39,232 bases of DNA from Patescibacteria group bacterium (GTDB lineage: Bacteria > Patescibacteriota > Minisyncoccia > JAHIHE01 > JAGLIN01). The stretch spans positions 119,200 through 158,431 of the forward strand of contig JARGGI010000001.1 of assembly GCA_029210775.1 (NCBI GenBank), read 5' to 3'. Made by a program: the position numbers and the translations under genes. Shown one piece after another: positions 14,708 through 28,137 of this stretch (positions within the stretch are counted from its first letter, which is position 1; each line of letters opens with the position of its first letter). The notes beneath the pieces were generated by a model that worked only from the letters and a program-made list of their open reading frames with translations, had not been told where the DNA came from and ran no database searches.

Positions 14708-14805
14708 TGTAATTGCGATAAATTCTGTAGGGTGACGAAGCAATTCCGAAACTATGAGCATTAATTATAGTTACGGGATTGCTTCGTCGTTCCTCCTCGC
14801 AATGA
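14708..14805. repeat. Palindromic repeat (type 1) directly after murF
   Basis: The right arm GATTGCTTCGTCGTTCCTCC with CTCGCAATGA (14778-14805) mirrors a more decayed left arm TGTAATTGCGA...GACGAAGCAATTCC (14708-14746). The sequence matches the elements at 15347-15446 and 26440-26565. It ends about 9 bp from the murF stop, so it could also act as a 3' hairpin on the murF mRNA. Confidence 0.75.
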
Positions 14806-14813
14806 AAAATTTA

Positions 14814-16592
14814 TTAAATCGTCTTTCCCATCACAACTCCCGCTCCTCTGCTTTCAAAAAGAACAACAGTATTTTTGTTTAGATTATTTTTAACCATTTC
14901 CGCCACTTTTCCAAAATCCTTTTCTAAAACAAACTTACAATCATTTTTGTTTCTCGATTTTTGTTTTTTGTTTCCCATTATATAAGCTACATCACAAACC
15001 TCTCCAATTCTTTCAAATAATTTCTCGTGTACTTTATCACTTTCTTTTCCTAACTCAATAATTCCTGGAAAAACAATCATTTTTTTATAATCTTGATATG
15101 CCTCTTCTAAATAATCCAACGCGGCCAACACGCCATCGGAATTGGCGCTGTAGCTGTCGTTAATAAAAACAGAATTATTTAGGCCGTCCAATTTTTGCAT
15201 CATAAATTTGGTCGGTTTTATTTCTTCCACAGCGCTTTTAATTTCATTCAAATTCATTCCCAAATATTCTGCTGTCATTATAACAGATAAAACATTTTCT
15301 ATATAATGCTTGCCAAGAAGATTAATTTTGAATTTTATAATATCACTGTCATTGTGAGTAGCACCGTAGGACGACGAAGCAATCTCTGAATTTAGTTTTT
15401 CACGCATAGTTTCGAAATTGCTTTGTCGTTCCTCCTCGCAATGACAATTGGAAACGGTCAAATAATCAAATTCTATATAGTCTTGATAAACTTTGATGTT
15501 CTCTATATTATTTAAAGAAAAATATTTTTTATTTATTATTTTTATTTCCTGATTCTTAATTTTTGAATTTATTATCGCCAGCCCATTTTCTGGCAATGCC
15601 TCAATTAATTCAAACTTTGCTTTTGTCGTATTTTTAATTGATCCAAATAAATCAATATGCTGTTCGTTGATGCCTGTTAAAATCCCAATTTCAGGTTTTA
15701 CAATTTCACATATTTGTTTAATTTCCCCTATTTTATACGCTCCCATTTCGCAAATAAAATAATCATATTCATCGCTTACTTTATTTAAAACCGTATACGC
15801 CACGCCAATATTCGTGTTATTATTCCCTTCTGTTTTTACTACTTTATATTTTTGAGATAAGATTGCGTATAAAAATTCTTTTGTGCTCGTCTTACCATAA
15901 CTGCCAGCAATACCAATCACTTTTATCTTTTTTAATCCTTGCATTTTAATAGTTGATTTTTTTATTAATCTTTTTTTTTGAAAATTAAAAAAGGGATTTA
16001 TTGTTAAAATAATTGAAGAAATCACTATAGGATTAACAAGATAAATAAAGAGCATCAATTCAATTCCAGAAACTATACTTTCAACAGGAATTCTTGTTTT
16101 ATTTATTAAAGAAAAAAAACTAATCCAACAAAAAGCAATTAATAAATAAACGGCAATTAATAATAAAAAAATTAATATAACTTTCAAAGTCGGCCTCGGT
16201 CTTAAAAAACTTCTTTTTTTTATTTCTTTAAAAATTTGTAAAAAAGTAATTAGAAAAAATGCTAAAACTATATATAAAATAAATTGAATTTTTGTCATTT
16301 CGAATGAAGCTAAGTGAAGGGAAAAATCTAAGAAATCAACTATATTATCAGATTTCTCGCCTACGGCTCTAAATGACAGTTTTTGAGCAATTTGATTAAT
16401 ATACAGGAAAACAAATATAATAATCGCTGAAATATAAAACAAATTATTTTGCAATATATTTTTATCCTCCTTTAAAGATGATATCATTCTATCAATTCTA
16501 TATTCCTTTACCTGCCACAGCCAAATAAAAGACAAACTATCACGGAGAAGTTTGATGAAAAATAATATTAGGATTATTAGAATTATTGACAT
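14814..16592 (-). CDS. murF: MurF-like Mur ligase with N-terminal membrane domain and two repeat-derived inserts
   Basis: 592 residues. Residues 1-205 carry about five hydrophobic segments. The Mur ligase part begins near 222, with P-loop GIAGSYGKTSTK (227-238), the carbamoyl-Lys region ending NTTKAKFELIEA, and NDSYSANSDGVLAALDYL (478-495), the counterpart of DDSYNANP in MurF. MurF adds D-Ala-D-Ala to UDP-MurNAc-tripeptide; membrane-fused versions are, to my memory, common in CPR. Residues about 71-100 and 382-415 are encoded by two palindromic repeats (16293-16378 and 15347-15446) and have no counterpart in other Mur ligases. The frame is preserved through both, and the P-loop and other motifs remain intact, so the enzyme is probably functional. 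Confidence 0.85.
   Translation of the reverse strand: MSIILIILILFFIKLLRDSLSFIWLWQVKEYRIDRMISSLKEDKNILQNNLFYISAIIIFVFLYINQIAQKLSFRAVGEKSDNIVDFLDFSLHLASFEMTKIQFILYIVLAFFLITFLQIFKEIKKRSFLRPRPTLKVILIFLLLIAVYLLIAFCWISFFSLINKTRIPVESIVSGIELMLFIYLVNPIVISSIILTINPFFNFQKKRLIKKSTIKMQGLKKIKVIGIAGSYGKTSTKEFLYAILSQKYKVVKTEGNNNTNIGVAYTVLNKVSDEYDYFICEMGAYKIGEIKQICEIVKPEIGILTGINEQHIDLFGSIKNTTKAKFELIEALPENGLAIINSKIKNQEIKIINKKYFSLNNIENIKVYQDYIEFDYLTVSNCHCEEERQSNFETMREKLNSEIASSSYGATHNDSDIIKFKINLLGKHYIENVLSVIMTAEYLGMNLNEIKSAVEEIKPTKFMMQKLDGLNNSVFINDSYSANSDGVLAALDYLEEAYQDYKKMIVFPGIIELGKESDKVHEKLFERIGEVCDVAYIMGNKKQKSRNKNDCKFVLEKDFGKVAEMVKNNLNKNTVVLFESRGAGVVMGKTI
15347..15446. repeat. Palindromic repeat (type 1) inserted in frame in murF
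   Basis: The 100-bp element has ends TGTCATTG and CAATGACA and inner arms GGACGACGAAGCAATCTC and GAAATTGCTTTGTCGTTCC. On the murF strand it encodes CHCEEERQSNFETM followed by about 20 more residues (382-415 of MurF). It is closely similar to the intergenic copies at 14708-14805 and 26440-26565 and to the uppP copy at 27810-27914. Confidence 0.9.
16293..16378. repeat. Palindromic repeat (type 2) inserted in frame in murF
   Basis: The 86-bp element has ends TGTCATTT and AAATGACA, with inner segments AAATCTAAGAAATC and AGATTTCTCGCC. It differs from the type 1 core (GAAGCAATCTC/GATTGCTTCG) and resembles the other common bacterial repeat of the form TGTCATTTCGAA...AAATGACA. It encodes residues about 71-100 of MurF, including LSFRAVGEKSDN, in a loop between two membrane helices. 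Confidence 0.8.
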
Positions 16593-26439: not shown

Positions 26440-26565
26440 TGTCGTTGCGAGGAAGTCGTAACGACCGAAGCAATCTCGAGTTCAATGGTGCATAACATTA
26501 TATTATGTTTTGCGTTTATAGTTTCGGGATTGCCACGTCGCTCTGCGGAGCTCCTCGCAATGACA
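26440..26565. repeat. Palindromic repeat (type 1), intergenic copy
   Basis: TGTCGTTGCGAGGAAGTCGT (26440-26459) and the GCTCCTCGCAATGACA arm (26550-26565) mirror each other, with inner GACCGAAGCAATCTCGAG and TTTCGGGATTGCCACGTC. It is about 126 bp, longer than the copies in genes. It overlaps the frame upstream of the next gene, so a start within it (26505) is artefactual. Confidence 0.85.
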
Positions 26566-26594
26566 GTAAAGGAAATTATATAAATCTTAACACC

Positions 26595-27266
26595 ATGTAT
26601 GAATATCTATTAGGCTCATTAATACTGTTGATATTTTGGGCAATTTTATATTTTAGAAGAAATGATTTAAAAAAGCAAATGCTTTGGACAAGTATTATTG
26701 TGATGTTTTTTGCGTTCACAGGACCACTTTATGTTCCTGAATGGTGGAAACCGCCAACACTATTTGATCTTGCAAACAAAACTGGGCTTGATATTGAGAG
26801 CTTTATTTTTACATTTGCAATTGGCGGTATAGTTCCAACAATCTACTACCATCTTTTTAGATTTAAAAATGAAAAGAGCGATACAAAAAAAAGAGCCAGA
26901 TTTGACGCTTTAATATTTTCAATCATTTTGTTCGTAATACTTTTATTATTTTCAGATATGCATGCCAGTCACTCTTCGGCATTGGCAATGTTTTTGGGAG
27001 GAATTATGATTATAATCAACAGAAAAGATCTTATTGGAAAGGTCGTTTTCAGTTCTGTGTTATTTGCAACTTTATATTTCGTGGGTTTTAAAATTTTTAT
27101 TATCACATTTCCAAGCTTCCTTGAAAGTTTTTACAGTTTATCAAATTTATCTGGAATATTGATCTGGGGAGTTCCCTTTGAAGAACTTTCATTTTCTTTT
27201 TCGGTTTGTTTTCTCTATTCTGGAATGTATGAATATGTCAAAGGGTATAAAATAAAGAAATTATAA
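26595..27266 (+). CDS. Lycopene-cyclase-domain-like membrane protein
   Basis: 223 residues from the ATG at 26595 (MYEYLLGSLILLIFWAILYF). About six or seven hydrophobic segments are spread along it. Recognisable segments are TGPLYVPEWWKPPTLFDLA (42-60), TGLDIESFIFTFAIGGIVPT and the C-terminal WGVPFEELSFSFSVCFLYSG; the PxEE motif recalls the CarR-like heterodimeric lycopene cyclase domain. I recall CPR proteins of this type being annotated as lycopene cyclase domain proteins, yet no carotenoid gene is seen here, so another membrane role is possible. An in-frame start at 26505 would add about 30 residues translated from the repeat and is rejected. Its 3' end overlaps the convergent uppP by 29 bp. 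Confidence 0.7.
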   Translation: MYEYLLGSLILLIFWAILYFRRNDLKKQMLWTSIIVMFFAFTGPLYVPEWWKPPTLFDLANKTGLDIESFIFTFAIGGIVPTIYYHLFRFKNEKSDTKKRARFDALIFSIILFVILLLFSDMHASHSSALAMFLGGIMIIINRKDLIGKVVFSSVLFATLYFVGFKIFIITFPSFLESFYSLSNLSGILIWGVPFEELSFSFSVCFLYSGMYEYVKGYKIKKL

Positions 27267-28137
27267 TCAAAGAAAGTAGTATTCGATAAACCACGAAGAT
27301 ATTATAACTTCTATTTTCGAGATATCTTAGCATATATTTAATTGCCAAATAACCGCTTATTGTTGCGACAATTGTGCCGATAATAATGTTTTCGTTTAAT
27401 CCACTTTCAAGTAGATTGGGAAATTCTTTAATTCCTGCTCCTAAGATTATTGGTGTTGAAAGAAGAAATGAGAATTTTGCTGCATCTTTTCTTTTTATTC
27501 CAAGTAGAAGTGCTGCTGTAATTGTAATTCCGCTTCGAGACACTCCTGGAATAATCGCTAATGCTTGAAATAAACCAATTATAATCCCCATTTTTAGCGA
27601 CAGATTAGTTAGATCTGTTTTTTTTGCACCAATTTTATCAGCATAAAACAACAGGACGGCGCCAAGAAATAAAGTTATAGCGATTATCAAAGGGTCTCTG
27701 AAAATAGTTTCCGCATAAGTATTTAACAATAATCCCACAATAACGCCTGGAATTGTGGCGATGATAATTATAAAAAGTAAATCAGATTTCAAGAACCTAA
27801 ACGACAAAGTGTTATTGTGAAAAACTCTGTAGAGCGAAGAATAAATCTCGTGTTTAAACTCTCTGTGCGTAGTTACGAGATTACTTTGGTCTTTGCGACT
27901 CTCTCGCCATGGCAGTTTTAGTAAGTAAGAGTTTCTTATTATGCCGATCCAGTCATTATAAAAATATACTAATATCGCAAATAAAGTTCCCCAGTGAAGT
28001 GCTACATCAAAAGCAAGACCTTGGTCAGACCAATTAAAAAAGTTTGGAATTAAAATTAAATGTCCGGAACTTGAAATGGGCAGAAATTCAGCTACTCCCT
28101 GAATAACCCCCAAAATAATTGCTTGAATAATTTCCAT
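27238..28137 (-). CDS. uppP: Undecaprenyl-diphosphatase UppP (BacA family) with repeat-derived insert
   Basis: 299 residues, against about 265-275 for most UppP. GVIQGVAEFLPISSSGHLIL (11-30) holds the conserved Glu17 and the SSSGH stretch, and IIPGVSRSGITITAALLLGI (195-214) holds the PGVSRSG motif; both line the active site that removes phosphate from undecaprenyl diphosphate so the lipid carrier can be reused in wall synthesis. Residues about 75-109 come from a palindromic repeat (27810-27914) and sit in a loop between membrane helices. Removing them leaves about 264 residues, normal for the family. The start lies 5 bp after the MFS gene stop, so they are probably co-transcribed. Confidence 0.93.
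   Translation of the reverse strand: MEIIQAIILGVIQGVAEFLPISSSGHLILIPNFFNWSDQGLAFDVALHWGTLFAILVYFYNDWIGIIRNSYLLKLPWRESRKDQSNLVTTHREFKHEIYSSLYRVFHNNTLSFRFLKSDLLFIIIIATIPGVIVGLLLNTYAETIFRDPLIIAITLFLGAVLLFYADKIGAKKTDLTNLSLKMGIIIGLFQALAIIPGVSRSGITITAALLLGIKRKDAAKFSFLLSTPIILGAGIKEFPNLLESGLNENIIIGTIVATISGYLAIKYMLRYLENRSYNIFVVYRILLSLIIISLFYTL
27810..27914. repeat. Palindromic repeat (type 1) inserted in frame in uppP
   Basis: The 105-bp element (exactly 35 codons) has an outline of TGTTATTGTGA...GAAT..AATCTC and TTACGAGATTACTTTGGTC...CGCCATGGCA that aligns base by base with the murF copy at 15347-15446, although the arms have diverged. On the uppP strand it encodes LPWRESRKDQSNLVTT and about 20 more residues, with no stop in that frame; the frame equivalent to the one used in murF would contain a stop. 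Confidence 0.8.

Follow-up and report, generated by a model that had tools for sequence, protein, structure and literature searches.

The closest described relatives of the element treated here come from two literatures. REPs of the CGTC/TGTC type occur as in-frame copies inside genes, including those of tRNA synthetases, and have no dedicated transposase, according to the accessible part of their description (Di Nocera et al., 2013; PMC3733652). The Rickettsia elements RPE-4, RPE-6, and RPE-7 are palindromic, measure about 70-190 bp, carry an ATGAC/GTCAT end motif, and sit in frame in housekeeping genes (PMC3767692). The element found here in uppP is apparently of the kind known from Rickettsia, and apparently unreported in Patescibacteria: our literature searches for REPs in this group found nothing, and returned no relevant paper containing the string GTCATTGCGAG.

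The window, a stretch of 39,232 nucleotides to which coordinates refer unless prefixed, is a portion of contig C11 of a metagenome-assembled genome (1.17 Mb, 65 contigs; G000 in the following), whose gene calls are ORFs and which, among named relatives, comes closest to MAGs of Ca. Paceibacterota/Parcubacteria and Moraniibacteriota. The features of the window that matter here are these:

14708-14808, minus strand: intergenic copy of the repeat, directly downstream of murF
15345-15447, minus strand: copy in murF, residues 411-445, where most relatives have no residues
16293-16378, minus strand: a second, different TGTC-tagged palindrome in murF (TGTCATTTAGAG...GAAATGACA), residues 66-102
26440-26565, plus strand: copy overlapping the 5' end of ORF 26505-27266 (lycopene cyclase-like domain)
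27238-28137, minus strand: uppP (bacA), undecaprenyl-diphosphatase of cell-wall lipid recycling, 299 aa (Pfam BacA, 2.8e-80)
27810-27914, minus strand: full REP dimer of 105 nt inside uppP, encoding residues 75-109 (LPWRESRKDQSNLVTTHREFKHEIYSSLYRVFHNN)
27879-27914, minus strand: 5' arm of this dimer on the gene strand (TGCCATGGCGAGAGAGTCGCAAAGACCAAAGTAATC), a decayed TGTC-tagged hairpin of the GAGTCGCAACGACC subtype
27848-27878, minus strand: spacer between the arms (TCGTAACTACGCACAGAGAGTTTAAACACGA), partly self-complementary as read from the sequence
27810-27847, minus strand: inverted 3' arm, ending in ..CACAATAACA by its sequence (decayed tag GACA)

The listed N-terminus of ORF 26505-27266 is repeat-derived; its true start probably lies downstream, near MYEYLLGS.

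Iterative nhmmer searches find 85 copies of the repeat in 60 of the 65 contigs (1.169 Mb, 30% GC), 55 of them full and 30 partial; the family is far beyond chance. A full copy consists of an arm, a spacer, and an inverted arm, with TGTC at both outer ends; the arms run from TGTCATTGCGAG to GAAGCAATC and have modular middles, which mostly pair. Arms of the form TGTCATTGC..GCAATC come in 112 distinct versions, with a mean folding z of -1.2 against shuffled middles. In the arms ATTGC pairs with GCAAT, complementary AT taking the first and second stem positions; the outer stem has about 5 bp, and an internal loop separates it from an inner stem that varies. The arm pattern is present in 17 of the 18 genomes of the order and in 61 of 287 sampled from the phylum (reversed control: zero), and G003, a genome of a different genus, has 44 dimers with intact ends.

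With CGTC/TGTC REP dimers, as far as the accessible part of their description goes (PMC3733652), the element shares the TGTC tag, a stem starting with AT, a spacer, often unlike inverted arms, in-frame copies in genes, and the lack of a dedicated transposase (for which RAYT genes only were checked here), a likeness of described features. Its arms, however, measure about 33-56 nt and are thus longer, and their stem is divided into an outer part of 5 bp and a variable inner part, where the four published families, which vary among themselves, have 8-9 bp with a loop of 4-5 nt; its tail is CCC and not CCA, and its host is a Patescibacteria-type genome, a group not named for these REPs in that part of the source. 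With RPE-4, RPE-6, and RPE-7 it shares size, palindrome, end motif, and in-frame housekeeping hosts, although they belong to another lineage and the likeness is one of description (PMC3767692). In both, one site can carry different repeat groups, and Rickettsia and this genome have PheT and an O-antigen ligase gene as common targets; RPE inserts lie in exposed regions, the UppP insert in a predicted disordered loop.

The copy in uppP reads TGCCATGG...AATAACA on the gene strand. The earlier note had called it a repeat-derived loop of exactly 35 codons, without which UppP has about 264 residues (264 by count), and had aligned it over its whole length with the copy in murF; all of this is borne out. 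Its tags have decayed to TGCC and AACA; copies in G003, G009, and G011 served to assign the subtype of its 5' arm. No stable DNA hairpin was found in the present copy, the whole region folding no more stably than shuffled sequences (z 0.14); it is thus a decayed copy. In an alignment of UppP from 21 genomes, the insert falls between SYLLK and LKSDLLFI, where the loop varies. The earlier expectation that related UppPs would lack the insert holds for G010, G012, G002, and G005, where this loop is short at the site, but not for G003, whose homologue shares it; since the G003 loop is the same kind of repeat (LSLRGSRNDRSNPVTMHDEFNSGIASSLCGAPRND), this exception in fact supports an insertion. The solved structures 5oon and 6cb2 have zero residues aligned between query positions 69 and 121, and in an AlphaFold2 model based on 18 sequences the pLDDT falls below 50 at residues 77-109, against an overall mean of 85. 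The 105 nt are probably translated as a floppy loop of 35 residues; we infer that they are not removed and that UppP still works.

We hold it to be likely that a CGTC/TGTC-type REP dimer was inserted into a tolerant loop of UppP and is translated in frame, with host tolerance and chance openness acting as the filter. The element has two REP-like hairpin arms, inverted and TGTC-tagged, with a spacer between them, and forms a short, non-autonomous palindromic repeat dispersed over the genome. One copy has landed in a loop that the UppP fold tolerates, and its in-frame translation would add about 35 disordered residues. It would have survived because its net length keeps the frame, one sense frame is free of stops, and the loop absorbs the residues; the filter would lie in the tolerance of the host gene and in chance openness, not in a coding design of the element, and the same tolerant loops are struck repeatedly, by the uppP-type family and by others.

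How often the UppP loop was struck by this family is a closely balanced matter. The inserts in G000 and G003 start at the identical nucleotide, between ..TTAAAAC and TGTCATTGCGAG, and agree in orientation, subtype, and length, as one inherited insertion would have it. Two independent landings in a hot loop are nevertheless a serious possibility, to which we give somewhat less than an even chance: some other copies match the G000 copy at least as well (up to 77%) as the uppP copy of G003 does (74.5%), so that the comparison found no special closeness of the two; the arm types at the MnmA site differ between the two genomes; and the pristine state of the uppP copy in G003 is hard to square with one ancient insertion, barring correction of copies against each other.

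Sixteen of the 85 copies lie within long ORFs of conserved genes, a set obtained by demanding a readable ORF, which disrupted genes would escape. The hosts, named from sequence and in some cases checked by PDB or Pfam, are PheT, PrmC, two glycosyltransferases, MnmA, AlaS, RecO, LeuS, MurF, UppP, a HypE-like protein, CysS, an Elp3-like protein, a nucleotidyltransferase, MiaB, and an O-antigen ligase-like protein. For UppP, MnmA, AlaS, MurF, and PheT, comparison with insert-free homologues shows in-frame insertion into preexisting ORFs; thus, the MnmA insert occupies query residues 142-178, where the chain of the PDB homologue is continuous (134 to 134), and the AlaS insert, at query residues 282-314, is absent from PDB homologues. 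In G003, three of the 44 copies with intact ends are in genes, and two of these, in UppP and MnmA, are at sites also occupied in G000.

Several of these sites carry different repeats in different genomes. At MurF residues 411-445, G000 has a copy and G009 half a copy, whereas in G012 the place is taken by a different TGTC dimer (GTCATTCTGAA..CTCAGGATGAC); at the MnmA site, G000, G003, and G011 carry the uppP-type family with different arms, and G016 another TGTC dimer. The UppP loop of G008, G007, and G013 holds a second dispersed repeat (GGCTCCATAGTCCC-AATA-GGGCTGTGGAGCC; for example at L116:1720-1845), which has 21 matches in G008 and 14 in G007. This second repeat, unlike the uppP-type one, is also seen about 100-450 bp from RAYT genes in G009 and G004. 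The second palindrome of murF occupies residues that are likewise absent from most relatives, and blastn found no other copies of it in 60 of the 65 contigs. Because the loops of UppP, MurF, and MnmA are occupied repeatedly, and sometimes by other families, tolerant loops explain the survival of the copies best, rather than an element adapted to coding. More speculatively, these loops might be standing landing pads, on which occupants from different repeat families replace one another while gene conversion exchanges arms between copies; we offer this as a tentative extension only.

As to mobility, we infer that the candidate mover is an enzyme acting in trans. Like MITEs, the element is short, has terminal inverted repeats, and lacks a gene of its own; unlike them, it has no autonomous parent that we could identify, and a search for target-site duplications in 84 copies (offsets 0-1, lengths 2-9) gave no clear signal. 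Like REPINs and BIMEs, which go with RAYT (REP-associated tyrosine) transposases, it is a dispersed, non-autonomous, inverted pair of short hairpins. That the RAYT enzymes of these genomes mobilize it is suggested by the REP-like hairpins of the arms and by the Y1 transposases that nearly all genomes of the family encode. We nevertheless consider it unlikely, since all 27 RAYT genes from seven genomes lack a copy within 400 bp and the five with a copy within about 2.5 kb are no more than copy density predicts, while a different repeat does flank RAYT genes; the published CGTC REPs are also without transposase linkage in the accessible part of their description (PMC3733652).

Turning from the mover to the persistence of the insert, one could suppose that it was kept as useful, for example as an RNA hairpin in the uppP message or as a binding loop, and its occurrence at the same nucleotide in two genera would agree with this. 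We regard this as improbable: the G000 copy has lost its hairpin stability, the loop is predicted to be disordered, and most relatives have either no insert or something unrelated.

A further proposal is that the element is built or selected for openness in several frames; the earlier note had taken it to be open in more than one frame, as an aid to survival in genes, and the uppP and murF copies to be read differently. The frames do differ where the two copies are entered, over the first arm, but a codon-phase comparison including some flank places 79 aligned columns in the same frame, against 21 columns off by one and 9 off by two; the first 30 columns or so are out of phase because the 5' arms differ slightly in length, and the two proteins share the residues QSN..EI.SS..HN (by eye, QSNLVTTHREFKHEIYSSLYRVFHNN and QSNFETMREKLNSEIASSSYGATHND). 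The notion of a different frame therefore fails for most of the element. Nor is the element open in more than one frame as a rule: in the uppP copy a single frame of the gene strand is open, with another on the opposite strand, and the murF copy has one among six. The comparison with shuffled sequences that the earlier note had suggested likewise goes against it, since full intergenic copies average 0.87 open frames out of six, while dinucleotide shuffles (n=300) average 0.73 (sd 0.12) and 38 of them reach the same openness; the 44 pristine copies of G003 average 0.59 open frames, and 22 of them have none. As the family is not more free of stops than its shuffles, openness in several frames is not a reason for survival. 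It could be pointed out that the in-gene copies use all three core frames genome-wide (about 6, 3, and 3 among the 12 full ones, by eye), but this is what a filtering of chance-open copies would give. A closed copy would break its gene, and the search required readable ORFs; the openness of the in-gene copies therefore reflects a filter and not a property of the element. Selection for openness in several frames thus appears very improbable. That the 105 nt are removed, by an intron, an intein, or translational bypass, and that the protein never has the loop, is hardly credible, as nothing positive favors it (35 extra residues in essential enzymes merely invite the question), all 12 full in-gene copies are open in the host frame (though they were selected by readable ORFs), removal would not need such openness, yet most copies are open in few frames or none, and the only Rfam matches to structured RNAs in the window are two tRNAs.

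With the tolerant-loop insertion as the preferred reading, the palindromic repeats that invade proteins in Rickettsia and Wolbachia would extend to a symbiont-like radiation with very small genomes. The sites in MurF and MnmA, which are empty or nearly so in relatives, offer clean cases for testing the neutrality of inserts. If loops do serve as landing pads, conserved enzymes would regularly gain new loops through the turnover of repeats. For annotation, residues of the kind CHCEE..RND or VIAR..PRND in these proteins should be taken as repeat-derived and not as a sign of conserved function, and some predicted gene starts fall within repeats.

Some host proteins show further features. The two glycosyltransferases (G000:C4:8589-9776 and C8:18583-19764) bear the repeat at one and the same position, after YHGVT and before YILF. 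LeuS, with 1354 residues (L010:10868-14947; G000:C11:30868-34947), has embedded NUDIX and Ham1 (ITPase) domains according to Pfam, and its repeat insert is located in the editing domain.
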